Positions 35,175-47,520 of a stretch of 64,000 nt of DNA are shown in pieces. The stretch covers positions 372,001 to 436,000 of the forward strand of contig NZ_JOMJ01000004.1 of NCBI RefSeq assembly GCF_000711295.1, read 5' to 3'. This stretch comes from Desulfohalovibrio reitneri (GTDB lineage Bacteria; Desulfobacterota; Desulfovibrionia; Desulfovibrionales; Desulfovibrionaceae). Each line of letters begins with the position of its first letter. Position 1 is the first letter of the stretch. The position numbers were made by a program, and so were the translations under genes. Under the pieces are notes generated by a model. It was not told the origin of the DNA and did no database searches. It worked only from the letters and a program-made list of their open reading frames with translations.

Positions 35175-36191
<1,017 letters not shown>

Positions 36192-42288: not shown

Positions 42289-43404
42289 ATGCGTGACGCG
42301 CCACTGGTTCTCATCGTCGACGACGAACATCTCAACAGGCTGACCCTGGAGCGCATGCTCCATCGGGAGGGCTTCCAGACCCTTCTGGCGGATGACGGCC
42401 AGACGGGCAGGGAGTTGGCCCGGACCAGCCTGCCGGACATCATCCTGCTGGACATCATGATGCCCGGCGAGTCCGGCTTCGAGACCATAAGCGGGCTGCG
42501 GGAGGATGCGGAGACCGCCGCCATCCCGGTCATTTTTATTTCCGCCCTGGGAGATGTGGAAAACAAGGTGCGGGGCTTCGATCTGGGCGCGGTGGATTAC
42601 GTCACCAAGCCCTTCCAGTTCCGCGAGGTGCTGGCCCGCATCCGCACCAACCTCAAGGTTTCCGAGGCGCTGCGGGCCACTATCCGCGAACAGGCGCGGC
42701 GGCTGGAGCAGGTGCGCGACGCCCAGGAGGCCATTTTGGTCAAACCGGAGAGCCTTCCGGACGCCCGCTTCTCCATCCTCTTCGAACCCGTTCTCGAAGC
42801 CGGCGGCGACTTCTACGACGTCTTTCCGCGCGGCGCGGGGTACGGCTATTTCGTGGCAGACATCGCCGGGCACGACCTGGGGGCGTCCTTCGTCACCTCC
42901 TCCCTCAAGGCGCTTCTGCGGCAGAACGCCACTCCCCTGTACACGCCGGTGGAGACCATGACCAACATCAACGGCGTTCTGAACCAAGTGCTGGCTCCGG
43001 GCAAGTTTCTGACGGCGGCTTACCTGCAATTGGACCGCGCGCGCCGCAGGCTGACATTGGTCAACGCCGGTCATCCCCCGCCGGTGCTGGTGAGCGCGGA
43101 CGGCTCGGTGGAGCTTTTGCGGGCGGATGGGGACATTCTGGGGGCCTTCGAGCGGGTGGCCTTCACCCCGCTGCAACGGGAAGTGAGACCGGGGGACCGC
43201 ATCTACCTCTATACCGACGGGCTGGTGGAAACGCAGGGCGGCTCGTCGCCCCGCTGCCTGGGGAGCGGGGTGAGCCTGCTGCAGGATGCCTGCGGGGAGC
43301 TGCCCGGCTTGGAACTGGGAGAGAGCGTCGAGCGCCTCTGCCGGGCCATGGCGGGGCGGGGCGAACGCGGCGACGACGCGGTTGTAATGGCCGTCGAGGT
43401 TTGA
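42289..43404 (+). CDS. Response regulator with PP2C/SpoIIE-type phosphatase output (RsbU-like)
   Basis: A 371-aa protein. The receiver domain (about 5-125) has the acidic pair DDE at 11-13, phospho-acceptor D55 (LLDIMMPG) and the TKPF lysine. After a coiled linker comes a PP2C-type serine phosphatase (about 160-371), with GGDFYDVF, ADIAGHDLGASF, YTDGLVETQ and GDDAVV carrying metal-binding Asp residues. Such RR-PP2C proteins dephosphorylate STAS antagonists when their receiver is phosphorylated. The next gene encodes a kinase-STAS fusion and the last a CheA-type kinase, so input and target may lie in the same operon. A five-codon frame (ATGAAACGAAATGCGTGA, 42279-42296) overlaps the start. Confidence 0.93.
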   Translation: MRDAPLVLIVDDEHLNRLTLERMLHREGFQTLLADDGQTGRELARTSLPDIILLDIMMPGESGFETISGLREDAETAAIPVIFISALGDVENKVRGFDLGAVDYVTKPFQFREVLARIRTNLKVSEALRATIREQARRLEQVRDAQEAILVKPESLPDARFSILFEPVLEAGGDFYDVFPRGAGYGYFVADIAGHDLGASFVTSSLKALLRQNATPLYTPVETMTNINGVLNQVLAPGKFLTAAYLQLDRARRRLTLVNAGHPPPVLVSADGSVELLRADGDILGAFERVAFTPLQREVRPGDRIYLYTDGLVETQGGSSPRCLGSGVSLLQDACGELPGLELGESVERLCRAMAGRGERGDDAVVMAVEV

Positions 43405-43406
43405 AT

Positions 43407-44150
43407 ATGCTTGTTTCCTACACCAGAGGCGGGCTGCTCGGGTTCCACATGCCATCGAGGCTGCGCAGCGTGGACGCGGTCTGCGACGCGGTCTGGAACA
43501 GGCTGGAGCGGCTGGGCCTTGCGGAGCAGGCCTTCAAGCTGGTGCTGGGCCTGCGGGAAGCCCTGGTCAACGCCGTGCTGCACGGCAACGGACGGGGTGC
43601 GGAAGAGCGAGTGACCTGCGAGCTGCTTTTGGACGGCGACCGGCTGGAGGTGCTGGTGGCAGATTCGGGCGAGGGCTTCGACTGGCGGAGGGAGCGGGAG
43701 CGTCCCGAGCCGCTGAGCGAGTCCGGCCGGGGGCTGCACATCCTGCGCCACTGCTACGACGAGGTTGTGTTCAACGAGAAAGGCAACGAGGTGCGCTTTA
43801 GCAAGCGCGGCCTGCAACCGAGGGAAGAGGAGATGTCCGAGATCATGCGCGAGGAGAACGGCGTGGTCGTCCGGCCCGGACGGGACCTGGTGGCCTCCAC
43901 AGTGGAAGACCTGCGGGCGGAGCTTGGCGACCTGGTGGACGAGGGAACCGACAGCCTGACCATCGATTTCGAAGGAGTGGACATGGTCGATTCCCTGGGC
44001 ATGGGGCTGCTGGTGGCCACCCACAACTCTCTCAAGAAGAACGAGGGAAAGCTGGAACTGGTCAACGTTCCGGAGTCCATCCACGAGGTCCTGTCCATCA
44101 TGCGGCTCACCCGCCATTTCGAGGTGCGGCGTACTGGCGAAGAAGGATAG
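43407..44150 (+). CDS. Anti-sigma-type serine kinase fused to a STAS antagonist domain
   Basis: A 247-aa protein joining two parts usually made separately. Residues about 20-135 form a GHKL-type HATPase of the RsbW class: N box LREALVNAVLHGNG (49-62), DSGEGFD (87-93) and SGRGLHIL (106-113). Residues about 150-245 form a STAS domain with the motif DSLG at 195-198, where antagonists usually have DS[ST]G. An in-frame ATG at 43833 (Met143), preceded by AGGGAAGAGG, could start a separate STAS polypeptide. The upstream gene ends three bases before the ATG at 43407; a TTG at 43401 would add two residues. The fusion implies kinase and substrate in fixed ratio, or internal regulation. Confidence 0.85.
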   Translation: MLVSYTRGGLLGFHMPSRLRSVDAVCDAVWNRLERLGLAEQAFKLVLGLREALVNAVLHGNGRGAEERVTCELLLDGDRLEVLVADSGEGFDWRRERERPEPLSESGRGLHILRHCYDEVVFNEKGNEVRFSKRGLQPREEEMSEIMREENGVVVRPGRDLVASTVEDLRAELGDLVDEGTDSLTIDFEGVDMVDSLGMGLLVATHNSLKKNEGKLELVNVPESIHEVLSIMRLTRHFEVRRTGEEG

Positions 44151-44153
44151 GCG

Positions 44154-45272
44154 ATGGACGACGAGCTGCTGCATTCCTTTCAGGAGGATTCCAGGGAAAA
44201 CCTGGAGTCCATCGAGGGGGACCTCATGGATTTGGAGGCCGCCGGGGAGGCCTTCGAGGACGACTTGGTCAACCGGATTTTCCGCACCGCCCACTCCATC
44301 AAGGGGGCGGCCGGCTTTCTGGGGCTGGAACAAGCGGCCGGGCTGGCCCACGTGCTGGAGAACCTGCTCCACCTGGTGCGCGAGCGGCGGCTGATTCCGT
44401 CCAGGAAAACGGTGGACGCGTTCATGCGCGGGTTCGACGCCCTGGGGCGGCTGGTGGACAATCCCCTGGAGGAGGCCGAAGAGGGCCTGGAGGGGCTGGT
44501 GGCCGAACTGGAGGGCATGTACGACCCCGAGGCGCGGGACCTGGCCCACACGGATAGGGAAATCGGCGGCGGGGACGGGCCGGTCTTTACGGTGGATGAC
44601 CTGACCCTGGAGGAGGCGCTCAAGGGCGGCAAGTTCCTCTATCTGGTGGAGTACGACCTCATCCATGACGTGCATCGCAAGGACAAGACGCCCTACGACG
44701 TCATCCGCGCCATGCTCGATTCCGGCTACATCCTGGACAGCAAGGTGGACCTGGAGGCCGCGGGCGATCTGAAGAGCGGTTTCGGCAACAGCATTCCATT
44801 CCACGTGCTGTACGCCACCATTATCGATCCAGAGATCGTCTCCATGCTTTTCGACGTGCCCGAAGGGCGCGTACGCCTTCTGGACAGGGAAAGCGTGCGG
44901 GCCGGCGAGCCGCCGCGCTGGGCGTCCGGAACGGAGCCGCACGCCGGAGTGCTCGCCGAGAGCATAGCCGGGTTGGAGGTGGCCGAAGAGGACGGCGCGG
45001 CGGTGGTGCGCGCCGGGGAGGAGCTGACCCTGGATACGGTGGAGAACTTGCGGCAGGCGCTGCTGCGGGCTTCAGAGTCGCGCTCCGCTGTGCGGCTGGA
45101 TGTGAGCGATGCGAACCGCGCGGATTTTTCTTTCGCCCAGCTTGTTGTCTCCGCACTGCGCCACCAGGCGGAATGCGGCGGAGATTTCGGTTTCACGGGT
45201 GAACCGCCGGAACCGGTGGCGGCCTGCCTGCGCCGGGCCGGACTGGATAGGCTGCTTGGGGAGGCGACATGA
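44154..45272 (+). CDS. Hpt protein with P2-like and STAS-like segments, lacking a kinase domain
   Basis: A 372-aa protein. Residues about 1-115 form an Hpt domain with phosphoacceptor H47 in AHSIKGAAGFLGL. Residues about 150-250 resemble the response-regulator-binding domain of CheA proteins of this lineage (GKFLYLVEYDLIHDVHRKD...). Residues about 265-372 resemble a STAS fold (LTLDTVENLRQALLRASESR, then ADFSFAQLVVSALR). There is no HATPase, so it must receive phosphate from another kinase, most simply the CheA encoded next. It starts three bases after the previous stop and overlaps the next gene by four bases (ATGA). A phosphotransfer or buffer role is inference. Confidence 0.8.
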   Translation: MDDELLHSFQEDSRENLESIEGDLMDLEAAGEAFEDDLVNRIFRTAHSIKGAAGFLGLEQAAGLAHVLENLLHLVRERRLIPSRKTVDAFMRGFDALGRLVDNPLEEAEEGLEGLVAELEGMYDPEARDLAHTDREIGGGDGPVFTVDDLTLEEALKGGKFLYLVEYDLIHDVHRKDKTPYDVIRAMLDSGYILDSKVDLEAAGDLKSGFGNSIPFHVLYATIIDPEIVSMLFDVPEGRVRLLDRESVRAGEPPRWASGTEPHAGVLAESIAGLEVAEEDGAAVVRAGEELTLDTVENLRQALLRASESRSAVRLDVSDANRADFSFAQLVVSALRHQAECGGDFGFTGEPPEPVAACLRRAGLDRLLGEAT

Positions 45273-47434
45273 GCGGGCATCGGCTGTTCGCGGAGGAAGG
45301 CCGGGAGTTGCTGGCCGAACTGGAGGCCGCCTTGCTGGAGATGGAGGCGGAGCCGGGGAATGAGGACAGCGTGCACCGCATCTTCCGCGTCCTGCACACC
45401 CTCAAGGGCTCGGCCGACATGCTGGGCCTGGACGACGTGGCCGCCCTGGCCAACGACATGGAGACGGCCTTCGACCGTGTTCGCCAGGGGGAGCTGGCCG
45501 TGGAGCGTCCCCTCATCGACCTGACTTTCGCCTTCAAGGATCGCCTGGAGGAATACATCGCCGAGCCCGCAGGGAGGCTGGACCTGGAGGCCTCGTCGCG
45601 CATTCGGCGGGGGCTGGAGCGCTTGGCTGAGGGCGGCGGAGTTTCTTCGGAGCCCCCCCGCGCAGAGCGGAATGCTTCTGCCGAGGGGGACGGCGGTGCG
45701 AAGGAATACGGCCTTGAACTGTTCCACGTACGGCTACGGCCTGTGGGCCGGGAGTTCGCGCTGGCCGACCCCGCAACACTGCTGGAGCAACTGGCCGAAC
45801 TGGGCGAGGCGCGGGTGGCGGCCGGGGTGGAGGACGTGCCGGGGCTGGACGGGCTTCGCCCGGCGGTTTGTTTCATGGGCTGGGACGTGATTTTGCGCAC
45901 CGGCCGGGGGGAGGATGCCCTGGCCGACATCCTGTTGTTCGCCGAGGACGCCGAGGCGGAGTACCGGCGTGTGGACGAGGCCGAGGCGGGCGAGATTCTG
46001 CGTCGGGCCTCCTGGACGCCCGCGCGGCTTTGCCAGGGGGCTCCTACCGTGGCGAGCGGTTTTTCTGCATCCACCACCGAAGGGGAGTCGCCGGAGGAAT
46101 CCGGAGCGGCGGGTGAAACGTGCGCCGCCGGGTTTTTGGACCTTGAGGAAACCGGTCTCCCGGAGCCTTCCACTCCCGTCGCTGGATCCGTCCGTCCTGA
46201 GCCTCACGAGGCGGAGGCCCGGCGTCCGGCCGGGCGGCCCGCGGCCAAGAACCGGGGAAGCGAAGAGATCGCTTCCATCCGGGTAGCCGCGGACAAGCTG
46301 GACGGCATGGTGGACCTAGTGGGACAGCTTGTCATCGCCCAGGTGCGGCTGAGCCGGATTTCCGAGGACGTGCGGGACGTTAGGCTGAACGCGGTCACCG
46401 AGGAGGTGGAGCGGCTCTGCGACGACCTTCGCGAGCGCACCCTGTCCCTGCGCATGCTGCCCATCGGCACCACCTTCAACAAGTTCCGCCGCCTGGTGCG
46501 CGACCTGTCCTGCGAACTGGGCAAGGAGATCGAGCTCAAGACTTCCGGCGCGGAGACCGAACTGGACAAGACGGTCATCGAGAAGCTGGGCGACCCCCTG
46601 GTGCACCTGCTGCGCAACTCCATCGACCACGGAATAGAAACGCCCGGGGAGCGCCGGGCCGCGGGCAAGCCGGAAATGGGGACCATCCGCCTGCATGCCC
46701 AGCAGGCAGCCGGGCAGGTGCGCATCGAAATCAGCGACGACGGCCGGGGAATCGACCCGGACAAGGTGCTTGCCAAGGCGGTGGATCGCGGGCTGGTGCG
46801 GCCCGAGGCGGCCAACGGCCTGAGTGTCCCGGAAATCCTGAAGCTCATCTTCCAGCCCGGCTTCTCCACGGCCGAGAGCGTGACCAGCGTCTCCGGCCGA
46901 GGCGTGGGCATGGACGTGGTTCTGCGCTCCCTGGAGTCCCTCAAGGGCAAGGTGGACATCGACTCCGACCTTGGCGAGGGAACCACCATCACCATCGGCC
47001 TGCCCCTGACCCTGGCCATTATCGACGGGCTGGAGGTGAAGGTGGGGGAGGAACACTACGTCATCCCCCTGTCCGACGTGGAGGAGTGCGTGGAACTGCC
47101 CGGGGTCGTGGCAAACGGTGCCTGCGCCAAGGCGTACGACATCAAGGGGGCGCTGGTTCCCTGCGTGCATCTGCGCGGCTGGTTCGAACTGGATGACGAA
47201 GGCCCGCCCATTCAGCAGGTGGTGCTGGTGCGCCATGGCTCCGAGAGGGCCGGGCTGGTGGTGGACGACATCATCGGCCAGCGGCAGACGGTCATCAAGG
47301 GGCTGGGCCGGGTGCTGCGGCGCGTGCGGGGGCTCTCCGGGGCCACCATCATGGGCGACGGCTCCATGGCACTGATTCTGGACACCGCCTCTCTCATCAG
47401 CGTGGCCGAATCGGAATGCCGGACTGGCCGCTGA
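45269..47434 (+). CDS. CheA-type chemotaxis histidine kinase
   Basis: A 721-aa histidine kinase. Hpt at about 1-105 with H43 in LHTLKGSADMLGL, a P2-like segment (about 145-240), a low-complexity linker, dimerisation domain (about 325-400), HATPase (about 420-580: LLRNSIDHGIETP, DDGRGID, GFSTAESV, GRGVGMDVV) and a C-terminal CheW-like domain (about 590-715: GLEVKVGEEHYVIPLSDVEE). All catalytic boxes look intact. It is the last gene of a four-gene operon and has no CheW, receptor, CheR or CheB next to it, so it may serve the upstream receiver-phosphatase instead of, or as well as, flagellar chemotaxis. A terminator follows. Confidence 0.93.
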   Translation: MSGHRLFAEEGRELLAELEAALLEMEAEPGNEDSVHRIFRVLHTLKGSADMLGLDDVAALANDMETAFDRVRQGELAVERPLIDLTFAFKDRLEEYIAEPAGRLDLEASSRIRRGLERLAEGGGVSSEPPRAERNASAEGDGGAKEYGLELFHVRLRPVGREFALADPATLLEQLAELGEARVAAGVEDVPGLDGLRPAVCFMGWDVILRTGRGEDALADILLFAEDAEAEYRRVDEAEAGEILRRASWTPARLCQGAPTVASGFSASTTEGESPEESGAAGETCAAGFLDLEETGLPEPSTPVAGSVRPEPHEAEARRPAGRPAAKNRGSEEIASIRVAADKLDGMVDLVGQLVIAQVRLSRISEDVRDVRLNAVTEEVERLCDDLRERTLSLRMLPIGTTFNKFRRLVRDLSCELGKEIELKTSGAETELDKTVIEKLGDPLVHLLRNSIDHGIETPGERRAAGKPEMGTIRLHAQQAAGQVRIEISDDGRGIDPDKVLAKAVDRGLVRPEAANGLSVPEILKLIFQPGFSTAESVTSVSGRGVGMDVVLRSLESLKGKVDIDSDLGEGTTITIGLPLTLAIIDGLEVKVGEEHYVIPLSDVEECVELPGVVANGACAKAYDIKGALVPCVHLRGWFELDDEGPPIQQVVLVRHGSERAGLVVDDIIGQRQTVIKGLGRVLRRVRGLSGATIMGDGSMALILDTASLISVAESECRTGR

Positions 47435-47484: not shown

Positions 47485-47520
47485 AAAGGGCGCTCCCCCG
47501 GTGGGGAAGCGCCCTTTGTT
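47485..47520. terminator. Bidirectional terminator between cheA-like gene and pnp
   Basis: The stem AAAGGGCGC...GCGCCCTTT, extended by TCCC/GGGA, has T-rich tails on both strands (TTTGTTCATTT on plus, CCCTTTTTCC on minus). Confidence 0.85.

Follow-up and report, generated by a model that had tools for sequence, protein, structure and literature searches.

In Pseudomonas aeruginosa, phosphorylation of HsbR via the phosphotransfer protein HptB favours its PP2C phosphatase over its kinase in acting on HsbA, which in its unphosphorylated form binds FlgM (PMC6482189). PPM phosphatases, including the receiver-linked RssB, are switched by helical linkers (PMC12143880), and in Rv1364c kinase, phosphatase and STAS domain switch within a single chain (PMC9138534). 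Here we describe an operon of four genes from Desulfohalovibrio reitneri (contig NZ_JOMJ01000004.1, positions 372,001 to 436,000; this stretch of 64,000 nucleotides is called the window below), in which the parts of such a partner switch stand beside a gene for CheA. Research on chemosensory arrays has usually been separate from that on partner switches. Sequence comparison makes it probable that this operon is a partner-switching module of the HptB-HsbR-HsbA type that is fed phosphate by CheA. Its features are as follows (positions within the window).

42289..43404, + strand: gene 1 (371 amino acids, aa), receiver (REC, aa 7-119), helical linker and SpoIIE/RsbU-type PP2C phosphatase (aa ~153-371); Pfam and our own hidden Markov models (HMMs)
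42451..42453, + strand: Asp55, predicted phospho-acceptor of the gene 1 receiver; alignment of 29 orthologues
43407..44150, + strand: gene 2 (247 or 249 aa), fusion of a serine kinase (RsbW/SpoIIAB type) with a STAS domain (RsbV/SpoIIAA type); Pfam, AlphaFold and Foldseek
43992..43994, + strand: Ser198 (numbering from TTG 43401), residue of the gene 2 STAS domain predicted to be phosphorylated; 26/26 fused copies have the D-S motif
44154..45272, + strand: gene 3 (372 aa), Hpt (aa 3-98), P2-like domain (aa ~144-244) and STAS_2 (aa 283-365); Pfam, our own HMMs, AlphaFold and Foldseek
44292..44294, + strand: His47, predicted phospho-acceptor of the gene 3 Hpt domain; conservation in gene 3 copies
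45012..45248, + strand: STAS domain of gene 3 without the phosphosite serine (CheS-like), predicted docking domain; orthologue alignment and STAS grouping
45269..47434, + strand: gene 4 (721 aa), CheA with P1 His43, P2-like, dimerisation, HATPase and CheW-like domains; Pfam, catalytic motifs and CheA tree

The four genes and their domains had been proposed in an initial annotation, and Pfam confirmed them at these positions. The tight spacing described there (gaps of at most three bases, or ATGA overlaps) was also found: 2 bases separate genes 1 and 2, 3 bases separate genes 2 and 3, and genes 3 and 4 overlap by 4 bases (ATGA, 45269-45272). Judged from the sequence, the most likely start of gene 2 is ATG 43407, just past the gene 1 stop; the TTG at 43401 given in the list of open reading frames (ORFs) is also possible and would overlap gene 1. 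Two features had been missed, a conserved P2-like domain, unnamed by Pfam, in both gene 3 and gene 4, and the presence of two kinds of STAS domain, one with a phosphorylatable serine (gene 2) and one without (gene 3).

Conservation of the operon and its active sites

A genome search for the gene order, which the initial annotation had suggested as a check, covered 199 genomes of the order Desulfovibrionales and a scan of GTDB contigs. The order REC-PP2C, RsbW+STAS, Hpt-P2-STAS, CheA is kept in 22 distinct loci from 5 genera and 2 families of Desulfovibrionales, and therefore the arrangement is not due to chance. Kinase and STAS domain are fused in 18 of these loci and are encoded by separate neighbouring genes in 4; four further loci are interrupted by contig ends. 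Seven domain trees, CheA included, indicate that the parts of the operon are co-inherited and have been moving together since assembly: their pairwise distances correlate, and the nearest relative of the window was a Desulfonatronum-family locus in five of them (the exceptions were PP2C and RsbW).

The catalytic residues of the switch are intact. Gene 1 (Response_reg, 3e-27; SpoIIE/PP2C, 1.6e-36) has as its best full-length solved relative the P. aeruginosa REC-PP2C protein 3eq2/3f7a. Its receiver residues Asp11/12, D55, S/T85 (Ser85 here) and Lys107 are conserved in the orthologue alignment, which confirmed the position previously given for the receiver aspartate; the one orthologue without Asp55 is L048, which has a truncated called start. 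Conserved PP2C residues, including the metal aspartates, are D174, D191, D310 and D362/363, except that the last motif of an all-in-one chain (L057, below) did not align. Gene 2 (HATPase_c_2, 8.4e-21; STAS, 8.5e-15) retains the kinase residues E53, N57, D88 and G-R-G, and its STAS domain has the SpoIIAA/RsbV-type site D197-S198 in every fused copy. The AlphaFold model of gene 2, with a predicted local distance difference test (pLDDT) score of 87, matched SpoIIAB (1th8), RsbW (6m37) and RsbV (6m36) in Foldseek, and the predicted fold is SpoIIAB/RsbW plus SpoIIAA/RsbV.

Gene 3 (Hpt, 4.3e-15; STAS_2, 9.1e-12) was modelled with a pLDDT of 84 and matched CheA P1 and RsbV/RsbS, with the middle domain lying between these matches. 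His47 is kept in all copies except L039, which lost the Hpt domain. The phosphosite serine of the gene 3 STAS domain is missing in every orthologue, and this domain groups with the STAS gene beside the other CheA of the genome, in a STAS-CheY-CheA cluster (L197). In Sinorhizobium meliloti, the STAS protein CheS binds CheA and alters its choice of CheY (reviewed in PMC12654446). The gene 3 STAS domain is non-phosphorylatable and is best read as a CheS-like docking domain that would bring CheA, Hpt and the switch together. Gene 4 has Hpt, H-kinase_dim, HATPase_c and CheW-like matches in Pfam; the CheA His43 is conserved, and the ATP-lid motif is altered in L041. CheA3 of Desulfovibrio vulgaris was considered as a parallel and set aside, since its operon as described contains chemotaxis and parA-type genes (PMC3944678).

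Proposed phosphate flow and its alternatives

We infer the phosphotransfer steps, the sign of the switch and its output from described precedents, which make each step plausible. CheA would autophosphorylate at His43, and the phosphate would reach Asp55 of gene 1 either directly or via His47 of the gene 3 Hpt domain. The phosphorylated receiver would then alter PP2C activity through the helical linker, the phosphatase would dephosphorylate the gene 2 STAS domain at Ser198, and the RsbW-type kinase of the same chain as that domain would rephosphorylate it. In one state the STAS domain would occupy the kinase, and in the other a kinase or STAS surface would be free for an outside partner. Because kinase and STAS domain share one chain, the switch would probably be intramolecular or take place within a dimer, as proposed for Rv1364c.

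Natural variants of the operon bear on these roles. In 11 loci genes 1-3 are present and CheA is absent, and in 3 of these, all from one lineage (L047, L049 and L091), a hybrid kinase with the domains SBP_bac_3-PAS-HisKA-HATPase-REC lies ~2 kb upstream in divergent orientation, a layout that fits a relay from the kinase and its receiver through Hpt to REC-PP2C. The nearest syntenic relatives of the window operon, which have the same lipoprotein and pnp neighbours, lost either Hpt and CheA (L039) or genes 3 and 4 (L040), and their genes 1-2 keep the active-site residues despite the loss of CheA. In Desulfocurvus (L057/L105), REC-PP2C-RsbW-STAS forms a single chain; in L136 a REC-PP2C-RsbW chain is followed by STAS, which is the HsbR-HsbA layout; and in L110, L113 and L126 a lone Hpt gene directly precedes REC-PP2C. 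Because of these variants together, genes 1-2 would be the core, Hpt the likely entry point of phosphate and CheA one of several possible donors. The Hpt protein had been left without a role in the initial annotation, and the CheA-less loci suggest this one for it. One genus also has a second, divergent paralogue, with RsbW-STAS beside an Hpt-P2-Hpt-CheA protein (L070:6657-10185 and L071).

Could orphan hybrid histidine kinases be the real input through the gene 3 Hpt domain, with CheA as a secondary or alternative donor or as a phosphate drain? The CheA-less loci, the hybrid kinases near the module in three of them, the lone Hpt genes ahead of REC-PP2C and the use of HptB by hybrid kinases in Pseudomonas (PMC6482189) all favour such an Hpt-centred relay. 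However, CheA is adjacent in 22 loci, its gene overlaps gene 3 here and is co-inherited with the rest, and our own profiles matched no hybrid kinase in the window, and we consider this explanation rather unlikely. It is a good deal less probable still that gene 4 is an incidental neighbour, a chemotaxis kinase that acts on a CheY elsewhere. Its kinase core does group with the CheA of the STAS-CheY-CheA cluster, it has a CheW-like domain, and the genome encodes stand-alone CheW proteins and about 19 methyl-accepting chemotaxis proteins (MCPs) elsewhere; but the gene order persists across genera and families despite differing flanks, and cheY, cheB, cheR, cheW and MCP genes are all absent from the operon.

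Several observations weigh against a module fed by CheA. Since 11 loci keep genes 1-3 without it, CheA is not an obligate partner of these genes. The operon has no receptor or CheW genes of its own. The gene 4 CheA does not appear to come from the CheA hybrids of the wider clusters described below; because its core groups with the other CheA of the genome, outside the hybrids, its link to the switch would be a later recruitment. The correlations between domain-tree distances (0.84-0.97) carry no species-tree control, and predicted template-modelling (pTM) scores of 0.58-0.63 for genes 2 and 3 make the relative domain orientations unreliable. The CheA-driven reading of the initial annotation thus holds in part: CheA is dispensable, but the joining of CheA and partner switch into one unit is borne out by conserved order, co-inheritance, intact catalytic residues and similar gene sets in unrelated phyla.

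Origin, output and surroundings

In Acidobacteria, Planctomycetes, Spirochaetes and other delta-proteobacteria, REC-PP2C, RsbW and STAS genes precede a CheA-receiver hybrid, and CheW and chemoreceptors occur. Because such clusters are found in other phyla, the coupling of CheA to a partner switch appears to be older than the window operon. In a metagenome-assembled genome (MAG) of Acidobacteria (L098:6871-16620), REC-PP2C and RsbW-STAS stand at the head, followed by a CheA hybrid, an MCP, CheW, a second receptor-like gene and a CheB-like receiver; this cluster is a candidate parent form of the window operon. A Solibacteraceae locus (L127) encodes an Hpt-P2-STAS protein adjoining the CheA hybrid, and its fusion looks independent because its STAS domain belongs to the RsbV group.

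The Hpt-P2 half of gene 3 finds matches (E 1e-67 to 1e-105) in the N-terminal region of CheA-type proteins from many other families of the phylum; these are ~1000-1170 aa long, and the CheA-receiver hybrids above are of this type. Gene 4 was expected to be the leftover CheA of the wider clusters, and this was rejected by the CheA tree, in which all gene 4 copies and the other CheA of the genome form one supported group (99/97). The window operon thus looks chimeric, with switch genes and an Hpt-P2 adaptor that would stem from an old chemosensory cluster and a CheA that was recruited to them. We regard as evenly balanced a broader proposal, that these clusters, spread over several phyla, represent a distinct, undescribed class of chemosensory pathway with a serine/threonine partner switch as its output in place of a motor-binding CheY. 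Under this proposal the window operon is a reduced chimera: the N-terminal half of an ancestral CheA hybrid was kept as Hpt-P2 adaptor and gained a new STAS tail, and the role of kinase passed to a second, recruited CheA.

Two other groups of RsbW matches were noted. Planctomycetota (L140:7068-8459, L141-L153, L158 and L159) have a conserved protein of ~464 aa with the odd architecture of a C-terminal RsbW-type kinase (seen in L140) after two HU/IHF-type DNA-binding stretches; many copies have a weak receiver-like match between those domains. In a Candidatus Parcubacteria MAG, a 182 aa ORF (L157:7914-8462) contains two stretches matching the RsbW kinase profile, which is unexpected in a reduced genome and may reflect mis-binning or a split hit.

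With regard to output, the sigma-70 set found in this 97%-complete genome comprises RpoD-like, RpoH, FliA and two sigma factors of the extracytoplasmic function (ECF) type; none of the sigma-70 hits was an equivalog of RpoS or of the SigB/F type. FlgM is encoded close to flagellar genes, ~23 kb from the operon on its downstream side. Because the sigma set lacks RpoS and SigB/F types and both FlgM and FliA are present, FlgM/FliA would be the most testable target candidate in this genome; a non-sigma target is equally possible. A partner switch that controls, for example, a diguanylate cyclase and no sigma regulator would be compatible with the input side of a CheA-fed module. It agrees with the sigma set, with the lack of a sigma gene in the operon and with the P. 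aeruginosa precedents HsbA-HsbD and SiaC-SiaD (PMC5085249, PMC7647112). The case against a sigma target is, however, absence of evidence only, and FlgM and FliA are both there; we judge a non-sigma output a serious possibility, somewhat short of even. With CheA feeding such a switch, sensing of the chemotaxis type may lead to gene regulation and not to the flagellar motor.

Flanking genes differ between genera and include no conserved output gene. A Fur-family gene lies directly downstream of the operon in Solidesulfovibrio loci (e.g. L054:13815-14264), and, independently, a bacterioferritin gene in Desulfonatronum-family loci (e.g. L042:11650-12201); a link to iron or oxidative stress is possible. 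The downstream gene here is pnp, and therefore the flanks taken together indicate no shared target. In genome-wide searches, all hits for MCP, stand-alone CheW, further RsbW/STAS and sigma-70 genes fell outside the window, in agreement with the earlier statement that no sigma factor, CheW or receptor is nearby. None of the four operon proteins has an obvious membrane part. A glycine-zipper lipoprotein-like gene lies ~127 bases upstream of the operon, and neither a sigma-70 promoter consensus nor a sigma-54 box (own pattern) was found upstream. The operon is followed by a likely terminator:

47486..47517, no strand assigned: hairpin AAAGGGCGCTCCCCC...GGGGAAGCGCCCTTT between gene 4 and the convergent pnp, likely a bidirectional terminator; from the sequence, with a terminator-like site on the - strand

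Elsewhere in the window, positions 35175-36191 encode an NtrC-like sigma-54 activator (AAA+, Fis-type HTH) whose called frame has no receiver domain; a gene for a TPR protein lies downstream of it.

Comparison with described systems

Among the closest described systems are HptB-HsbR-HsbA of P. aeruginosa and CrsR-CrsA of Shewanella, in which a phosphorelay feeds a partner switch from Hpt to REC-PP2C and an RsbW-type kinase acts on a STAS serine. The predicted counterparts here are a REC-PP2C with the conserved Asp and metal aspartates, the STAS serine and the Hpt His47. In those systems, however, kinase and REC-PP2C share a chain and STAS is separate, whereas here kinase and STAS share a chain and REC-PP2C stands alone; among the relatives, the HsbR layout was found only in L136, and the all-in-one form in L057. 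The Hpt domain is here fused to P2-like and STAS domains, and the proposed phosphate source is CheA and not orphan hybrid kinases. Targets in those systems are FlgM, HsbD or RpoS; of these, FlgM is encoded in this genome, and no RpoS equivalog was found.

A kinase-STAS fusion with a cognate PP2C is known from Mycobacterium tuberculosis Rv1364c (PAS-PP2C-kinase-STAS), and the Desulfocurvus proteins have the same chain with a receiver replacing PAS. In Rv1364c the sensor is a PAS domain, receiver, Hpt and CheA are absent, and the PP2C belongs to the kinase-STAS chain; here it is in gene 1, and shares that chain only in L057/L105. The RsbW/RsbV chemistry is that of Bacillus subtilis RsbU/RsbW/RsbV and Bacillus cereus RsbK-RsbY, where RsbY, a REC-PP2C protein, is driven by a histidine kinase. 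The Bacillus operons contain the SigB gene and lack CheA, Hpt and P2-like parts, whereas no cognate SigB/SigF-type sigma factor was found near the operon or among the sigma-70 hits of this genome. The hmp locus of Nostoc punctiforme is linked to a chemotaxis-like system; HmpU is not known to be a receiver-phosphatase, and thus no phosphotransfer from CheA to a phosphatase is implied there. Its likeness to the operon lies in the partner-switch genes HmpU/V/W (PMC8256260). S. meliloti CheS, likened here by description and not by sequence, is a STAS protein whose gene lies next to that of CheA; it binds CheA and thereby biases phosphotransfer to a receiver. CheS is stand-alone, whereas the serine-less STAS domain here is the C-terminus of the Hpt protein. 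As in chemosensory systems generally, CheA has the P1 His, dimerisation, HATPase and CheW-like domains; CheW and MCP genes, absent from the cluster in the window, are both present in L098.

A PP2C/RsbW/STAS switch driven by CheA, if this is what the operon encodes, could place transcription or second messengers under receptor arrays, with the gain and adaptation known from chemotaxis. Conserved gene order and natural variation (fused, split and CheA-less forms) make this idea testable and would help to define chemosensory clusters of "alternative cellular function". The exact arrangement was earlier said not to be known as a described system, and we found no description in the open-access literature of an operon that combines CheA with REC-PP2C, kinase-STAS and Hpt-P2-STAS. 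Its chemistry and its domains are known ones, and close precedents in kind do exist in HptB-HsbR-HsbA, Rv1364c and the Nostoc hmp locus.

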